Part shown: positions 11,901 through 22,986 of the stretch, one piece after another
How positions within the stretch are numbered: the stretch's first letter is position 1
Layout of the letters: each line of letters starts with the position of its first letter
Origin: an uncultured Pseudomonadota bacterium
GTDB lineage: Bacteria > Pseudomonadota > Alphaproteobacteria > UBA9219
NCBI GenBank assembly: GCA_903875345.1
Contig: CAIQVS010000090.1
Span: forward strand, 1 to 34,553
Direction of reading: 5' to 3'
Length of the DNA: 34,553 nt
Position numbers and translations under genes: made by a program
Notes under the pieces: generated by a model
The model's input: the letters and a program-made list of their open reading frames with translations, nothing else
Told to the model about the DNA's origin: nothing
Databases searched by the model: none

Positions 11901-12153
11901 GCATATCGGGATTCACGCCCGGCTGCGGATCGAACGCGATACGCGACCCGTACCAAGCCAGCCATTCCGCCTGTATCTTTGACGTGCGCATTTCCTCGCG
12001 CGCCATCGACCCGATCACCGCGATGATGCCGAGGAAAATGATGAACGGGATCAGCCAGAAAACCGGCGGCAACCGCATGCCGTGCGAGGGTTCGGGCTTG
12101 CGAACAACGCGACGGTTAGGATGGGGCGCGTGCTGGGGCTTGGCTTTTTTCAC
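8998..12153 (-). CDS. Large divergent class A penicillin-binding protein (transglycosylase/transpeptidase)
   Basis: A protein of about 1050 residues predicted to build peptidoglycan at the inner membrane. Counted from the GTG at 12153, a basic tail precedes a membrane anchor at about 31-48 ('VFWLIPFIIFLGIIAV'). A diverged GT51 domain has 'YIENREL' (181-187) in place of the usual E-D-x-x-F, 'GGGSTLATQIEKF' (223-235) and 'LDYLN' (276-280), where the family normally has E-x-Y-L-N. The transpeptidase motifs are S516-T-A-K519, a later S-V-N and 'KTGTG' at 943-947. The C-terminus is Pro/Ser-rich. An insert of about 240 residues separates the two domains. The frame stays open up to 12393, but longer starts overlap the KamA gene heavily; an ATG at 12195 is the main alternative. 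It overlaps the KamA gene by 38 bases. Confidence 0.85.
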   Translation of the reverse strand: MKKAKPQHAPHPNRRVVRKPEPSHGMRLPPVFWLIPFIIFLGIIAVIGSMAREEMRTSKIQAEWLAWYGSRIAFDPQPGVNPDMRYPKFGPYNQRLGYSYLPVFFKGLQGDGFTIAEQMRASPTYDFFMDRGLYPVYHVKSVAGLTLTDRNGQKLYTASYPNHVFTNYSGIPPLLVSTLLYIENRELLRDGPVTRNPVIEWDRFFYALLGHVLHSLAPGLNTGGGSTLATQIEKFRFSPGGQTASGVEKLRQIASASLRVYMDGEDTRKAREKIVLDYLNSTPLSARPGGGEINSIGDGLWAWFGIELNDAVIALNLPEQDPDSLRFKAKIYRAALGLILAQRRPSYYLVSNHAALDVLTDVTLDRLAAAQVISPVLRDAAKTASFRFIPEVPPAPQLPFVEQKATTALRSHLLTMLGLKKLYEIDRLDLAAQSTLDQTSQQQTIDFLRHLDDPVFAQSIGLYGFRLLKPENDLKKIKWSVVLYERTPNGNKLRVQADTIDEPFDMNEGVKLDLGSTAKLRTLVSYLEIVSELYRRYAGLSPDDLHDLSDEAPDNLTEWATAWLIGNPDATLDQMLDASMERTYSGNPGEVFFTGGGAHQFVNFEHEEDVQVMDLHEAFRQSVNLVFVRLMRDIINYTIAQGPQTKQELLDDPDEPARQSYLQRFADKEGMTFLNRYISDYSGEGSDAAMEKLLTHAHKGATARTIIFRSLRPQASFEEYADFMIYHQVNGEPLGNGRLAELYKNYPVERYDLEDRGYIAGLNPLELWLVGYLQSNPHATRRAILEVSQPVRIECYSWLFHPRLKHAQDTRIRIILEEDAFARLQKRWARLGYPFNKLVPSLATAIGSSGDRPGALAELVGIILNDGLKNPTVRFESLLFGQGTPYETQLVEDGSAAQRQLLDPAITRVMRGVMAEVVDNGTAKRVKGVYKDATGNLLPVGGKTGTGDQRYDEFGAGGHLLSSRVVNRTGTFAFFIGDKFFGTITAHVAGEDAADYVFTSALSAQMLKSLAPIFEPLIMRSETVAQNVAPISVPASASASPQQSVPTTKQP

Positions 12154-13240
12154 AGGTTTCGTTTTCGCTCGGCAAAGACGCCGGAGAATCAGCATTGGCG
12201 TCGCAATAGATATGCCGCTTGCCGCGATAATCTTCAACACTCCAAACGTCGCCTTCACGTTGAATAAAGCCTGAAGAGATAGGAACCTTGCCGTGACCTC
12301 CCGGAATGTCGAGCATATAGCTCGGCTGGCAAAGGCCGGACAGATGCCCGCGTAACCCGCGAACCAGTTCCTGCCCGCGCTCGACCGACACACGGAAATG
12401 ACTCGTGCCGCGCGCCAGATCGCCGTGATGCAGGTAATGCGGAGTAATTCTGCACGCGACGAAAGCGCGCATCAGCTCGGCCAGCACCGCCGCATCGTCG
12501 TTCACGCCGCGCAGTAGAACGCTTTGCGACAGCATCGGGAATCCGGCATCGACCAAAAGGGCGCAGGCCGCGCGAGCCTCCGGCGTCAACTCGCGAGGAT
12601 GATTGCAATGCAGCAGCACATAAACCGGCGCTCGCCCGCGCAAGGCCGCGATCAAATCCGGCGTAATGCGTTCGGGATCGACGACCGGCAGACGGGTATG
12701 AATGCGCACAACCTTAACGTGAGAAATGGCATTCAGCTTTTCGATGACATCACCCAGCCGCCGGTCCGACAAAACCAAAGGATCACCCCCGGACAGGATC
12801 ACTTCCCAGATTTCCGTATGCGCGCGGATGTAATCCAGCGCGCGGTCAATCGCCTCGCCCGACAGCATCGCCTTGGCTTCTCCCACCTGCTCGCGCCGAA
12901 AGCAAAAGCGGCAATACACCGCGCATGTGCGCAACAGCTTCAACAAAACGCGGTCGGGATAACGATGCACGACGCCTTCAACCGGGCTAAACGCATCATC
13001 GTCGATGGGATCGGGACGTTCCCCCGGCAGGATATTCAGCTCCGCCGCCGAGGGAATGAACTGCGCGGCGATGGGGTCATGCGGATCGTCGCGGTCAATC
13101 AGGTTAACCATCGCCGGAGTCACGGCAACGCTGAATTCCTCGGCGACGCGCCGCAGCTCCGGCGTGATCGCGGGCAGAATATCAACGTTAACAAGATCTT
13201 CCGGCGAACGGGCTGTTTGAGAGAAAGGCAAGACAATCAT
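12116..13240 (-). CDS. KamA/EpmB-family radical SAM aminomutase
   Basis: A 374-residue radical SAM enzyme of the lysine 2,3-aminomutase family. The 4Fe-4S/SAM motif is C106-A-V-Y-C110-R-F-C113, followed by 'EVILSGGDPLVLSD', 'RIHTRLPVVDPERI' and 'LLHCNHPREL'. The PLP-binding region is 'LDIPGGHGKVPI', with the Lys that forms the Schiff base. The length fits EpmB (YjeK), which makes (R)-beta-lysine for elongation factor P, as well as short catabolic KamA enzymes. No epmA or efp is next to it here, so the substrate is left open. The ATG at 13240 has an AGGA site. It is first in a two-gene minus-strand unit with the large PBP and is divergent from the fibre gene. Confidence 0.87.
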   Translation of the reverse strand: MIVLPFSQTARSPEDLVNVDILPAITPELRRVAEEFSVAVTPAMVNLIDRDDPHDPIAAQFIPSAAELNILPGERPDPIDDDAFSPVEGVVHRYPDRVLLKLLRTCAVYCRFCFRREQVGEAKAMLSGEAIDRALDYIRAHTEIWEVILSGGDPLVLSDRRLGDVIEKLNAISHVKVVRIHTRLPVVDPERITPDLIAALRGRAPVYVLLHCNHPRELTPEARAACALLVDAGFPMLSQSVLLRGVNDDAAVLAELMRAFVACRITPHYLHHGDLARGTSHFRVSVERGQELVRGLRGHLSGLCQPSYMLDIPGGHGKVPISSGFIQREGDVWSVEDYRGKRHIYCDANADSPASLPSENETCEKSQAPARAPS

Positions 13241-13341
13241 GCGACGATCCTATCAGGAAAAGCCCATAGATAATCAATTTCTACCGCCGTTTCCTTTAGT
13301 CTAAGTGACAAATTTCGAGCAAATGGTAAGGTTCCCGATAA

Positions 13342-13357
13342 TTAACCATGCGTTAAC
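13342..13357 (+). promoter_or_regulatory. CtrA-type binding box upstream of the fibre gene
   Basis: The sequence TTAACCATGCGTTAAC is a full match to the CtrA consensus TTAA-N7-TTAAC and also contains the TTAACCAT half-site form. It lies about 100 bases before the fibre start and about the same distance from the divergent KamA gene. CtrA is the alphaproteobacterial cell-cycle and motility master regulator; binding here is inferred from sequence alone. Confidence 0.6.
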
Positions 13358-13382
13358 ATTGGTTTAATACAATTCAACCTGA

Positions 13383-13402
13383 TCAGTTTAAGGGTAAACT
13401 GA
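13383..13402. repeat. Perfect 8-bp inverted repeat, possible operator
   Basis: TCAGTTTA and TAAACTGA flank AGGG, forming a perfect palindrome 40 bases before the fibre start and 25 bases after the CtrA-type box. There is no T run, so an operator or mRNA 5' hairpin is more likely than a terminator. Confidence 0.45.
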
Positions 13403-13442
13403 CTTATTACGGTCAGACACAATCGTCGCGGGGGTACAGAGA

Positions 13443-14608
13443 ATGCACATGCGGAAAAACACTGGCAGCAATCGCCGTTTTGTCCCTTGGCGTTTCGCAG
13501 CACGCCTATGCAGCCAACTCAGGCGTAGGAATGAACTCAGCAGCGAATACTGACCTGCCGCTTGGCGCTGGCGGAGTGGATTATATGTGGATCGGTGCGG
13601 GCGGAGACACTTTGACTAGGGGATATGTCGGCTTTAATAGCACTACGAACGCCGCAACTCCGTTAGCATGGATTAACTCCAGCGACGGAAGTGCAGGTTT
13701 TAGCAAAGTCGGAATAGGCTATTCAGTATTGACGGCACCTGTTTCGCCTTTGGACGTGAATGGAAAAATTAGCACTCCGCATTTAGGTAATAACTCAGGA
13801 AATTTATTGATATACGGCAAATAACGCTGGCAATATTACGCTAGGCAACAGCTATATGTTCATTCAATCGGGAGGCAACATCGGGATGGGGGTAACGACA
13901 CCCGGCACAGCCAAGCTTAATGTTGCTAACTCAGGCAGTAATGTTGGGCTATACGTAGGTAATACTTCACCCTTTGGCCAGGCACAGATCGAAATGGACG
14001 GAGGCGTTGTGACCCATATCTGGGCAGCGGAAGGAGGGTCGAGAGTATTCTCCGTTACCGGTGGAGGCGAGGGATACTTTGCCGGCAATGTCGGGATAGG
14101 AGTGGCCCCCTCGTCAACGTATGCGCTGGATGTGTCTGGCAATACAAATGTCACCGGCAATCACTCCGTTGGTGGAAACGCAGTTATCACAGGTAGTACT
14201 ACGGCACTCTCCTACTACCACTCGTCCGATGCGCGGTTGAAAACCGACATTCGTCCCATACCGGATGCCCTTGACAAGCTCCTGTCCATTCAGGGCGTTG
14301 AGTTCAACTGGAAAAAAGACGGACGGTCAGACATGGGCGTAGTGGCACAAGATGTCGCCAAAGTGTTTCCGAACGTGGTTTCGAAAAGTGAAAACGGCGG
14401 CATGATGACGGTCGAATACGACAGCCTTATCGGTCCGATGATCGAAGCGATCCGCACGTTGAAAACGGAGAACGACTCCATGAAGGCGGAGTTGGCCGAG
14501 ATTCATGCGTCGCTGAAAGCTATAAAAGAAGACAACACGCGGTTGCGGTCGATTAACGCAGGCGATGGAGTCAAGGCGCCTGAACCTTCCCCCTCGGTCG
14601 AACCCTGA
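13443..14608 (+). pseudogene. Secreted fibre-type protein with C-terminal S74 chaperone domain, two apparent frameshifts
   Basis: Three frames join into one gene of about 387 codons. ATG at 13443 and 13449 start in one frame. Skipping one A in the run AAAAA at 13455-13459 gives a normal signal peptide, 'MRKTLAAIAVLSLG...QHAYA', then mature 'ANSGVG'. That frame ends at TAA 13822-13824; skipping one A in the AAA at 13819-13821 continues as 'GNNAGNITLGNSYMFIQ'. The body repeats the fibre motif 'VGIG...P...LDV.G' at least three times, and the end is a peptidase S74 domain. Such domains trimerise beta-helical fibres in phage tail spikes and in bacterial surface proteins. Both lesions are single extra A bases in A runs, so sequencing error, phase variation or true decay are all possible. 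The two Cys-rich genes follow, the first 23 bases later. Confidence 0.72.
13856..14608 (+). CDS. Open C-terminal part of the fibre gene with intact S74 (ICA) domain
   Basis: This is the longest uninterrupted frame of the fibre gene, 250 codons from the first in-frame ATG. It is open a little further upstream, to the frameshift at 13819-13821, and has no convincing ribosome-binding site of its own. Residues 1-115 are Gly/Asn-rich fibre repeats. The S74 domain begins at 'HSSDARLKTDI'. The Ser124-Lys129 pair has the five-residue spacing of the self-cleavage dyad known from phage endosialidase, so cleavage before Ser124 would release a chaperone of about 127 residues. It continues with 'VEFNWKKDGRSDMGVVAQDV' and ends in a coiled coil (about 195-235) rich in Glu, Lys and Leu. 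The catalytic end is intact although the upstream frame is broken. Confidence 0.75.
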   Translation: MFIQSGGNIGMGVTTPGTAKLNVANSGSNVGLYVGNTSPFGQAQIEMDGGVVTHIWAAEGGSRVFSVTGGGEGYFAGNVGIGVAPSSTYALDVSGNTNVTGNHSVGGNAVITGSTTALSYYHSSDARLKTDIRPIPDALDKLLSIQGVEFNWKKDGRSDMGVVAQDVAKVFPNVVSKSENGGMMTVEYDSLIGPMIEAIRTLKTENDSMKAELAEIHASLKAIKEDNTRLRSINAGDGVKAPEPSPSVEP

Positions 14609-14631
14609 GTACAATCTGAAAGATTACGCTC

Positions 14632-15879
14632 ATGCACTGTTCAGCGCCGCAAAAACTTCGCTTTCTAACGTTAATAATTGCTCTGGCGTGCTTATTGCTT
14701 GGGATATTTCCCCACAACACACTGGCGATACCATCGTTGCAAGAATGTTCAATCGATGGCACATGCGCCTATGTTCCGAATAACCAAGCGGTTGCAGTTA
14801 GTCCAAATTTTTCTGACGCAAATCCTCTTTGCAAACAGATCAAGAATAACAGCTGCGACGGTACCGCCGACGTCATGGTCCCGATAAAGAATCAGAATGA
14901 ATGGACATCCTTCCTCACATCCAATTTCGTCACCGCCCCGAGTTCCTGCATCACCATTTCCGCTTGCCCCGACTATATCGCCGGCGGTTACGGCTCATGT
15001 TCGGCACAATGCGGCGTAAGCGCCGTAACACTCACCCCGACAACCTGCACAAACAGCATAACAGGAGCATCGGTTAGCCTCAGCCTTTGCAGCAACGTGG
15101 GCGAACAATGCAACACAATAGCCTGCACACGCGGGGACGGTTGCAACGTTGCATCTCTGCCTTTACCGACGGCCACGAACTCATTTGTAGCTTGGACGAA
15201 TAGCGGCAGTCCCTTCGGCAGTTCCTGCGCAGGAGGATGCACCAATCCAAATCCACAAACGGGAACTTGCAATTGTCCAAGCGGATATATCGATGCAATC
15301 GATACCAACACTGGAGGTAGCATCGGCAGCGAGGGATGCACGGGATTTACCCATACATGCATTTCGACTTGCGGCGGCAAGTTTGATCAATGGTCGAATG
15401 GCGCTAATGCCTTCGGCAGTTCCTGCTCAGGAGGATGCAGCAGTCAAAACCCTGCAACTAGAGCATGCACTTGTCCATCGGGATATTACGACGGCAGTCA
15501 GTCCAACACCGGCGGCAGCGTGGGTGATGAGGGATGCACAGGATTTACCCATGCGTGCCTTCCTATTCCTTCTGGTTCCTGCTTAACCAACGATCATACG
15601 GATTATTATAACGGGGAGACTTGGAGGCCAGGAGGCATGAGTCCTGCTGGACCAACATTCCAATGCTACACTACAGATCCGAATACTGGCGCAATGCAAC
15701 TGGACGGCGCAACCATGGGACGGGAAATGTATAGCACGCTTGACAAGTGTAGTAACGGGAGCGTTGTTGATATCACCAGCACAAGCAACTCATCCTTTAT
15801 GTTCTGTAACTCCTGCCCGGCACAAGACACCAACGCTGCCGGGGAAGCCTCTTGCAGTACCCCACCCTCAGGCAATTAA
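14632..15879 (+). CDS. Secreted cysteine-rich protein with TSP1-like and tandem 51-residue modules
   Basis: A 415-residue protein with no family name that I recognise. The signal peptide spans about residues 1-32 ('FLTLIIALACLLLGIF', ending near 'TLA'). The mature part has 32 Cys, an even number that suggests extensive disulfides. A thrombospondin-1-like segment lies at about 112-165: 'GGYGSCSAQCG...TLTPTTC'. Two tandem modules follow at 195-245 and 261-311, each with 'FGSSC.GGC', 'C.CPSGY.D' and 'NTGGS.G.EGCTGFTH.C', also very similar at DNA level. The C-terminus is unique, with further Cys. A paralog lies at 16159-17346 with a matching sequence around its start codon. The S74 fibre gene ends 23 bases upstream, so co-expression is likely. 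A disulfide-rich adhesin or protease-resistant surface protein is the natural inference, not a demonstrated role. Confidence 0.75.
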   Translation: MHCSAPQKLRFLTLIIALACLLLGIFPHNTLAIPSLQECSIDGTCAYVPNNQAVAVSPNFSDANPLCKQIKNNSCDGTADVMVPIKNQNEWTSFLTSNFVTAPSSCITISACPDYIAGGYGSCSAQCGVSAVTLTPTTCTNSITGASVSLSLCSNVGEQCNTIACTRGDGCNVASLPLPTATNSFVAWTNSGSPFGSSCAGGCTNPNPQTGTCNCPSGYIDAIDTNTGGSIGSEGCTGFTHTCISTCGGKFDQWSNGANAFGSSCSGGCSSQNPATRACTCPSGYYDGSQSNTGGSVGDEGCTGFTHACLPIPSGSCLTNDHTDYYNGETWRPGGMSPAGPTFQCYTTDPNTGAMQLDGATMGREMYSTLDKCSNGSVVDITSTSNSSFMFCNSCPAQDTNAAGEASCSTPPSGN

Positions 15880-15927
15880 TTTGCGCAGCATTGTTATTTC
15901 TGACTTCTGAACCGGTTGCTCAACGGA

Positions 15928-16026
15928 TTACTTCACTGTAATCTCATGCTTCGCCGCCTCGACGTCCATACAAATTTTCTGCTTGAGGGCTTCGGAATTA
16001 TGGAACCCCTGTTCCGAAGAGATTAA
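15928..16026 (-). pseudogene. Diverged remnant of the ribF 3' end
   Basis: Read on the minus strand this 33-codon stretch, ending in TAA, translates to '.EQGFHNSEALKQKICMDVE' followed by 'AAKHE'. The C-terminus of the intact RibF (17355-18299) reads '.EQAFPNVEVLKQQICQDVE' followed by 'TARRR', with the same frame and orientation. The DNA is clearly related but far from identical, for example around CTGCTTGAGG.CTTC. A TAA precedes it, so nothing larger is coded. It sits just downstream of the first Cys-rich gene, exactly as real ribF sits downstream of the second, which makes it a footprint of duplication or insertion. Confidence 0.75.
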
Positions 16027-16158
16027 TTAAGCGCTACCCCTAATTGCCTCATTACAATCCATGTTGAACTGTTTTACACTTAACGTTGGAGAAAGAATCA
16101 GTGCAACTCAACTTTTGCTTTCGATCGAAATTTTGGTCCGAACAGAAGGATTAAGCTC

Positions 16159-17346
16159 ATGAAATATTCAGCGCAGCGAAATCTTAGCTTTCTACCATTA
16201 ATCATGGCGTGGGCGTTCCTGTTGTCGGTGGCATTGCCTCACGACGCTTTTGCTGATTGCTCAACAGATAGTCCCCCAACCTGCGTCTATATTCCGGACA
16301 ACACAACGGTCACACTCTCCCCGACACTCTTCACCCCAACGCCCCCGAACTATTGCAAGAAGATTACAACCAACAAATGCTACCATGAAATCATGGTGCC
16401 GCTGGGCAGCATCGACGAGTGGGAGGGGCCGACTTACGCTGGTGGTCCGGTTGGATTCGTGAACTCCACTTTCGCTACCCAGGGGGGATGCGTTACCCTT
16501 GCCGATTGCGAGACCTATACGTGGGTTGCCGGGGGATGGGGATCCTGTACATCTACCTGCGGCACAGGAACACAATCCCAGACCGTGACCTGTCATGAAA
16601 ATAATGCAAGCACACGCGTCGTTTCCACCGTTAACAATAGCTATTGCACAAGCTACGCCCCCGGTATCCAGCCCCCTACGAGTCGATCGTGTTCCAGCAT
16701 ATCCAGCTGCGTATACACTGCTGGCGGGTACGGTTCTTGTTCGACACAATGCGGAGCAGCCGCCCAAACCCTCTACCCGGCAACTTGCTGGAACTCGACG
16801 CTTGGTGTACCGGCTGCTCTTAGCTATTGCAACACAAGCGTGGGCGAGCAATGCAACGCAATAACGTGCGGTGCTTGCTCCTCCGCTCCGGCAACACCCG
16901 GCGGTTCGTTTGTCCTGTGGACGGCATATTCTCCTGGCGGCCCAACATGTGGAGGACTGGGCAACAGTGTAAATCCGGAGACAGGCGACTATACTTGTCC
17001 GTCGGGATACACGGATGGACTGGACGTGAACACGGGAGGCAGCATCGGCAGCGAGCACTGCACAGGATATACTCACAACTGCATTTCAACTTGTGAATCT
17101 TATTTTGAAAACGCGGAAGGAAAGGGATGTGCATGGCCATGGAATCCCAGCGGCGTTTTGTGCGTTAAAGTTAATCCGCAGACTGGCAGCTGCACTTGTC
17201 CGTTAGGAACATCTCCCAACCCAAGCGACTTAAACGGCAGTTACGGCGACGGAACTACAAGCGGTGGGGACTTCAATAATAATGGCAACTACGTTGATCT
17301 GGGATCCGGGAAGACATGTTCAGGGCGTCTTCATATCTGCCAATGA
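16159..17346 (+). CDS. Secreted cysteine-rich protein with thrombospondin type 1-like repeat, paralog
   Basis: A 395-residue paralog of the protein at 14632-15879. The signal peptide spans about residues 1-32 ('FLPLIMAWAFLLSVALP', ending 'AFA'). There are 30 Cys, all in the mature part. Residues 121-178 are a strong thrombospondin type 1 match: W-x5-W-G-S-C-x3-C-G-T-G with 'QSQTVTC', a central Cys and 'TSRSC'. A second, looser copy at 187-237 aligns with the single one in the first paralog. One 'CPSGYTDGLDVNTGGSIG...CTGYTHNC' module is at 280-308 and a diverged one follows at 324-394, ending 'GRLHICQ'. It stops 8 bases from the end of the convergent ribF. The 279 bases before it hold the ribF remnant and no other gene. 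An extracellular binding role is inferred. Confidence 0.75.
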   Translation: MKYSAQRNLSFLPLIMAWAFLLSVALPHDAFADCSTDSPPTCVYIPDNTTVTLSPTLFTPTPPNYCKKITTNKCYHEIMVPLGSIDEWEGPTYAGGPVGFVNSTFATQGGCVTLADCETYTWVAGGWGSCTSTCGTGTQSQTVTCHENNASTRVVSTVNNSYCTSYAPGIQPPTSRSCSSISSCVYTAGGYGSCSTQCGAAAQTLYPATCWNSTLGVPAALSYCNTSVGEQCNAITCGACSSAPATPGGSFVLWTAYSPGGPTCGGLGNSVNPETGDYTCPSGYTDGLDVNTGGSIGSEHCTGYTHNCISTCESYFENAEGKGCAWPWNPSGVLCVKVNPQTGSCTCPLGTSPNPSDLNGSYGDGTTSGGDFNNNGNYVDLGSGKTCSGRLHICQ

Positions 17347-17354
17347 GCTTCAGT

Positions 17355-18299
17355 CTAGCTTGATGTTCCTTCCAACCGCCGCCGCGCCGTCTCCACATCT
17401 TGGCAAATTTGCTGCTTGAGGACTTCAACGTTCGGGAAAGCCTGTTCGAGGCGGATAAAGCCGATCAGGGCGACTTCCAGCTCCTGCCCATATAAATCGC
17501 CATTGAAATCGAACAGGTGCGCCTCCAGCAATTCCGTCTTGCCGTCGACCGTGGGACGCACGCCGATATTGGCGACTCCGCGATAGAGCGGCCTTGCCCC
17601 GACCGGTCCCGCCTCAATCGCGTAAACGCCATAACGCGGACGCAAATAATCGCCGAGCGCGATATTGGCGGTCGGGAATCCGATCGTGCCGCCGCGCTGC
17701 GCGCCGCGTTGCACCACGCCCGCAATCGTCCAGTCGCGCCCCAAAATATGCCGCGCCGTTTCGATGTCCCCCTGTTGCAAGGCTTCGCGCGTGCGTGACG
17801 ATGACATAATCTCGCCCGCGCTGTCGCGAAACGGACTCACTTCGGTCACGCCGACTCCGTGCGCCGCCAGCCACGTGCGCAGATTATTCATATCGCCGCC
17901 GCGCCGATGGCCAAAGACGAAATCGAATCCGGCGATAACATGTTGCGCCTGAAATTCATCGACCAGAATCTGGTTGGCAAAATCCATTGCGGAAACAAGC
18001 GCGAACGCGGGCGTAAACTCCTGCACGATCACATCGTCGATGCCCAGCGCATAAAGCAGACGCAACTTGACCTCCGCCGGAGTCAGGCGAAACGCATCGA
18101 TATGCGGATTAAATACCGAGCGCGGGTGCGGCTCCAGAGTCAGCACACGCGCCGGAACGCCAAGACTTCTTGCCTTATCGATGCAGACCTTAATCAAAGC
18201 CTGATGGCCGCGATGAACGCCGTCAAAATTTCCGAGCGCGAACACGCCGCCTTTCGCACTCGGCGGCGCGCGTCCAATCATTTGAAGATATTCACTCAT
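17355..18299 (-). CDS. ribF: Bifunctional riboflavin kinase/FAD synthetase
   Basis: Cytosolic enzyme making FMN and then FAD from riboflavin. The N-terminal adenylyltransferase domain has 'GNFDGVHRGHQ', whose H-x-G-H motif lies at about 29-32, and 'SSSRTREAL' near 166-174. The C-terminal riboflavin kinase domain has 'GGTIGFPTANI' (about 203-213), 'YGVYAI' and 'GVANIGVRPTVDG'. Length is typical. I chose the ATG at 18299, preceded by GGAATGAGA; an ATG two codons upstream is also possible. The 3' end is nearly abutted by the second Cys-rich gene, and a diverged copy of its last 30 or so codons sits 1.4 kb away at 15928-16026. It is divergent from the hydrolase gene. Confidence 0.95.
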   Translation of the reverse strand: MSEYLQMIGRAPPSAKGGVFALGNFDGVHRGHQALIKVCIDKARSLGVPARVLTLEPHPRSVFNPHIDAFRLTPAEVKLRLLYALGIDDVIVQEFTPAFALVSAMDFANQILVDEFQAQHVIAGFDFVFGHRRGGDMNNLRTWLAAHGVGVTEVSPFRDSAGEIMSSSRTREALQQGDIETARHILGRDWTIAGVVQRGAQRGGTIGFPTANIALGDYLRPRYGVYAIEAGPVGARPLYRGVANIGVRPTVDGKTELLEAHLFDFNGDLYGQELEVALIGFIRLEQAFPNVEVLKQQICQDVETARRRLEGTSS

Positions 18300-18397
18300 T
18301 CTCATTCCAAGATTCTGAATTACGCCTTTGATTGCGCGCCTCCGTTTATGATACGTATAAGCCCCTTTTTCCTCAAGCAGCGATTGCCGCCCGCGTT

Positions 18398-22536: not shown

Positions 22537-22986
22537 GATCGTCCTCCGGCGATTAATTGCTACCAGCCTTCGGTACCCGGCAACGGTTCGTAGAACATCA
22601 ATTTCGATGTTTACGAGGCGGGCAGCAGCGGCGCCACCGACAATCCTCCGACCACGGCGATGACGATCACGGGCGCTGGCCTTGTCGGCATCGGGGCAGC
22701 GCCGAAATCCGCGCTGGATGTGTCTGGCGGCATGGCAATCGGCAGAGGCTATGCCGGTATTGTCGCCGCTCCGGCCAACGGACTGATCGTTCAGGGCGGC
22801 ATCGGAATTGGAACGACGACCATTTCCGCAACAAACTCCATCATGGTCACCAAGCCCGATTACCACATGGCCTATTTCCAGAGTACCGGTGCCAACAACT
22901 CGGTCGTTACACTCGACAACGCGTCGAGCGGCAACTTCGATCAGATTTGGTTCAACAATACCGGCTCAGAAATAGCGGTCGGATAA
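22537..22986 (+). pseudogene. Truncated fibre-gene remnant (relative of the S74 fibre protein)
   Basis: In one frame the DNA reads '.NCYQPSVPGNGS', a TAG at 22591-22593, then 'NINFDVYEAGSSGATDNPPT' and on through 'GLVGIGAAPKSALDVSGG', 'GLIVQGGIGIGTTT' to 'WFNNTGSEIAVG' and TAA. The repeats 'VGIG..P...LDV.G' are those of the fibre gene at 13443-14608. There is no start codon with a ribosome-binding site, one internal stop, and no S74 domain; the frame ends about 20 bases before the convergent barrel-protein gene. An ATG at 22660 could give a 108-residue peptide but nothing argues that it is made. Confidence 0.65.

Follow-up and report, generated by a model that had tools for sequence, protein, structure and literature searches.

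A decayed ribF 3' end between two Cys-rich genes as the probable scar of an old tandem duplication

How did a second copy of the end of ribF come to lie between two genes for Cys-rich proteins? The stretch of DNA analysed here, called the window, is a contig of 34,553 nucleotides from an uncultured alphaproteobacterium. Its intact ribF gene, encoding a bifunctional flavokinase/FAD synthetase of 316 residues, is on the minus strand at 17355–18305. An earlier note made from the sequence had pointed to a short minus-strand frame at 15928–16026 as an in-frame ghost of the ribF C-terminus, and had offered two explanations, an old tandem duplication or an integration of foreign DNA into the ribF 3' end that brought a replacement end along. 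The follow-up described below bears out the ghost and argues for the first explanation.

The ghost and its likeness to ribF

The fragment is an open frame with its own stop codon at 15928–15930. Read from 16026 to 15928, it translates as LISSEQGFHNSEALKQKICMDVEAAKHEITVK, and the RibF C-terminus with which it aligns is IRLEQAFPNVEVLKQQICQDVETARRRLEGTSS, each followed by a stop. The BLOSUM62 local score is 75; over 1000 dinucleotide shuffles the scores averaged 29 and went no higher than 47. At the DNA level the ghost is 73% identical to ribF over 63 bp, without gaps. The earlier claim of a 33-codon match therefore stands in that the alignment is far above the shuffles, but not in its length: the homologous core is the last 23–28 codons or so of ribF, in decayed form, and the ribF likeness fades in the last few codons. 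The similarity stops at around 16020–16030. As had been claimed, the ghost has the orientation of ribF, converges with a Cys-rich gene and lies 1.4 kb from ribF.

When 33 whole genomes of the order were scanned blind in all six frames with a profile of the RibF C-terminus, the ghost came out as the top match beyond the 33 intact ribF genes (E = 2.8e-5, calculated for a genome of 3.1 Mb). It was followed by a second ghost in a related genome, G018 (0.0041), and then by the background in unrelated frames, which starts at 0.015; no other ribF ghost in the 33 genomes rose above that background. When the same profile was run on the ribF neighbourhoods of the relatives, two matches other than intact genes exceeded the noise, with 25.1 and 19.3 bits against 8.1 for the next, and these are again the ghosts of the window and of G018. 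The absence of ghosts from the other relatives' neighbourhoods has a partial scope, in that the contigs of several of them stop soon after ribF. Judged by these comparisons, the fragment at 15928–16026 is a genuine yet dead copy of the ribF end.

The ghost is nearest to the ribF of its own genome, with 69.6% identity over 69 nucleotides, while 29 orthologues reach 58% at most. Its own ribF is also the nearest in 1731 of 2000 codon bootstraps (87%; 30 ribF genes compared), which for so short a sequence is moderate support. Because the ghost resembles its own ribF more than the 29 orthologues, no foreign donor is needed, and the suggestion that the copies come from different lineages finds no support. 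Over 23 codons the differences between ghost and ribF fall at the three codon positions in the numbers 5, 7 and 9, while in functional orthologues most of the differences are at third positions (7, 7, 15; 9, 5, 15; and 8, 7, 20). A ghost free of selection would be expected to show such a spread, although the counts are small. With the same reservation about the numbers, these figures suggest that the copy arose within the lineage and then decayed without selection, and the ghost is most likely without function.

The two units and their outer ends

The ghost lies between two plus-strand genes, Cys1 (14632–15879, 415 residues) and Cys2 (16159–17346, 395 residues). Both have signal-peptide-like N-termini, on which basis the products are predicted to be secreted, and Cys2 contains a thrombospondin type 1 domain (Pfam TSP1_ADAMTS, E = 7.7e-8). 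The two proteins are paralogues, with 44% identity over 249 residues (E = 6e-55). Each gene converges on a ribF-type stop codon, Cys1 at a stop-to-stop distance of 48 bp and Cys2 at 8 bp. It is worth adding that a 171-bp internal repeat occurs twice in Cys1 (15193–15363 and 15391–15561) and once in Cys2 (16915–17085), with 60–74% identity between copies.

Upstream of Cys1 is a gene with an S74 endosialidase chaperone domain (13480–14608, plus strand; Pfam E = 4.8e-18). Its frame is broken by a frameshift near 13825, and the two frames join into one protein; the gene is either a pseudogene or carries a sequencing error here. A short frame elsewhere in the window, at 22660–22986, contains S74/tail-fibre-like repeats (GIGTTT, LDVSGG) with no Pfam match, and is possibly a remnant of another such gene.

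The final S74 codons, which run to 14608, together with the 23-bp spacer before Cys1, occupy 14553–14631 on the plus strand. The same stretch is found again directly upstream of Cys2, at 16080–16158: the two align without gaps over 79 bp, with 51 identities (65%) and a local score of 23, the maximum in 2000 shuffles being 15. The S74-derived part of this second copy, 16080–16135, is a truncated and non-coding relic. An S74 tail of comparable length stands next to a Cys-rich gene in the relative G013, although not at ribF, and for this reason the tail in the window is taken to be a real coding tail. The presence of the pair in G013 also indicates that the order of S74 and Cys-rich gene is old.

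The unit of Cys-rich gene and ribF 3' end does therefore occur twice, as the earlier note had it, and the S74 tail is also part of it. Unit A spans 14553–16026, from the intact S74 end to the ghost, and unit B spans 16080–17447, from the S74 relic to the last 28 or so codons of the intact ribF. The two are collinear and lie head to tail, and at the junction a truncated copy of ribF meets a truncated copy of S74. Between the end of the ribF similarity and the start of the S74 similarity, at around 16075–16080, there remain about 53 bp (16027–16079) that match neither gene: the identities to ribF and S74 leftovers, 13/53 and 15/53, are at chance level.

Origin of the repeat

On the basis of these observations, we consider it very probable that the ghost was left behind by an old tandem duplication, in which about 1.4 kb comprising the S74 tail, a Cys-rich gene and the ribF tail were copied. 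The ancestral locus would have consisted of the S74 gene followed by a single Cys-rich gene, with ribF converging on it from the other side. The duplicated segment would have run from a point within the last 18 or so codons of S74, through the entire Cys-rich gene, into the last 28 or so codons of ribF. The ribF tail would have been copied along because the stop codons of the two convergent genes are so close together (at Cys2 the gap is now 8 bp) that a unit reaching beyond the Cys-rich gene takes in ribF sequence. The product would be S74, Cys1 and a ribF tail, joined at 16027–16079 to an S74 tail, Cys2 and ribF. At the outer edges would stand the S74 gene with its end complete and the whole of ribF, while the inner ribF and S74 tails, being non-functional, would have decayed, and the two Cys-rich genes would have diverged after the event. 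The outcome, as read from the sequence, is a pair of putatively secreted Cys-rich paralogues.

The homology, collinear from one end of the unit to the other and sharply bounded at both, argues for this model, and the relic upstream of Cys2 supplies the other end of the unit. Against it stand the unassigned 53 bp or so at the junction, and the exact breakpoints and any microhomology have been lost. The divergence of the three segments is comparable (65% identity for the S74 relic, 67–69% for the 5' region of the Cys-rich genes and 73% for the ribF tail), which fits a single old event. The view that the duplication was not recent was thus right, the inner fragments and their sources being 65–73% identical, and with copies so far apart a collapsed or chimeric assembly is unlikely. 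That a duplication took place, and where it ends, can be read directly from the alignments, and the recombination process behind it is our inference; a circular copy of the locus, integrated by a single crossover, would produce an identical arrangement.

A third Cys-rich paralogue, Cys3, is found on another contig of the same genome (C265, 719–1645; locus L046), adjoining a signal peptide peptidase-like gene and with no ribF relic there. The N-terminal half of Cys2 matches Cys3 with 167 bits, and Cys2 matches Cys1 with 176 and 147 bits. The later part of Cys2 is common to Cys1 (the 176-bit match) and its N-terminal half to Cys3, and the segment shared by Cys2 and Cys3 is absent from Cys1, which on this comparison has probably lost it by deletion. 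Since the N-terminal half of Cys2 matches Cys3 as strongly as the whole of Cys2 matches Cys1, a later deletion or gene conversion would have to be added to the model.

The principal competing explanation is that a small foreign cassette or element brought in Cys2 together with a ribF 3' end of its own, replaced the end of ribF and left the original as the ghost. An intact end, cargo and a displaced end are what such an event would also leave; the Cys region has a lower G+C content than ribF (52–54% against 59%); and in G018 an intact ribF with an abnormal C-terminus is followed by unrelated Cys-rich genes and then by a ghost with a normal-looking stop. This explanation does not, however, predict an S74 relic upstream of Cys2, nor the paralogy of Cys1 and Cys2 in the same context, and the ghost is closest to the ribF of its own genome. 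In addition, Pfam finds no recombinase or integrase domain on the genes spanning 12116–18305, neither phage relatives of Cys2 nor a tRNA at the duplication site were found, and the unit has no convincing inverted repeats at its borders. We therefore regard foreign integration as improbable, and with homology extending over the whole unit it is not needed. Islands and integrative elements that insert into a conserved gene and restore its 3' end resemble this locus in having intact and displaced ends on either side of the cargo, but the locus has neither a recombinase nor an att-like identical repeat. Nor is its cargo unrelated to its surroundings, Cys2 and the DNA upstream of it being a copy of Cys1 and the DNA upstream of that. 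Segmental tandem duplication matches the locus in the direct multi-gene repeat, the complete outer ends, the truncated inner copies and the later divergence of the paralogues; the low identity of the inner fragments and the unassigned junction are the points of difference.

Two further readings concern the ghost itself. One is that a fragment born by duplication was retained for an acquired role, for example as a structure with a part in regulation between the two Cys-rich genes. The ghost sits in the 3' flank of Cys1 and the 5' flank of Cys2, and within it is a perfect 8-bp inverted repeat (CTTCGGAA...TTCCGAAG) that is absent from the intact ribF end. Such a repeat is, however, expected by chance at the level of several percent by our estimate, neither a terminator-like site on the plus strand nor a promoter-like site was found at the ghost, and its changes look unconstrained, so that a retained role appears very improbable. 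The other is a chance likeness of noncoding DNA to the RibF C-terminus. The similar stretch is short, but its score exceeds that of every shuffle, it is the best match outside ribF itself in 33 whole genomes, it lies where and as a duplication predicts, and an independent relic marks the opposite end of the unit; chance can be practically dismissed.

Tandem duplication is an ordinary route of bacterial gene-family growth. The locus shows such growth in a family of putatively secreted Cys-rich proteins, with two decayed gene ends marking the limits of the event. It also cautions against taking a displaced 3' gene end for the mark of an integrated element before the other end of the repeat has been checked.

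The ribF flank in related genomes

The duplication was compared with relatives outside the genus, the window genome being its only member in the set, and among these relatives none with the single-copy order of S74, Cys-rich gene and ribF was seen. A RibF search of named genomes gave no close relatives, but 20 distant loci, mostly from Pelagibacteraceae. The Cys family of the window has weak relatives in G013 and a marginal one in G012 within the bacterial family; among 385 genomes of the class, it was found at E ≤ 1e-5 in the window genome alone. In many relatives ileS directly follows ribF. In the window genome ileS is on another contig, and a search beside it found no ribF ghost.

The earlier note had asked whether any relative carries insertions or Cys-rich genes at ribF, and one does. 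In G018 (locus L049, contig C174, 12111–13478), which belongs to the same family but another genus, two convergent Cys-rich genes specific to that genome lie between the intact ribF and a weaker ghost of the ribF 3' end, whose stop still looks normal. The intact RibF has an unusual extra C-terminus (MVTNAVIPATFSPRPLA). As in the window, the ghost lies 1.4 kb past ribF in the same orientation, with convergent Cys-rich genes in between. Unlike in the window, it lies outside both Cys-rich genes instead of between them, and these genes are unrelated to those of the window, with no match in the window genome. A matching relic at the other side of the G018 locus was not found. The G018 locus may have arisen by an insertion that replaced the ribF end, or by an older duplication with later loss of the outer gene.

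The ribF 3' flank may thus have been rearranged repeatedly, but a single example is a lead and no proof of a hotspot. It seems rather unlikely to us that in this family the flank is a recurrent site of gain or amplification of secreted Cys-rich genes that leaves displaced ribF ends behind, with the window and G018 as independent cases and G018 as a true end-replacing insertion. A literature search found nothing on ribF as an insertion site, nor on duplications of Cys-rich genes in Micavibrio, tentatively guessed to be the group of this bacterium. The possible recurrence at ribF is the one part that merits following, and the ghost in G018 makes this wider question testable once more genomes of the family are available.

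Finally, two Cys-rich genes of G013 (loci L047 and L048, contigs C8 and C9, bases 1–270) are near-identical from just after the signal peptide, while their signal peptides and upstream DNA differ. The two contigs break off at one and the same point of the shared stretch, a sign that the repeat may be homogenised (gene-converted).
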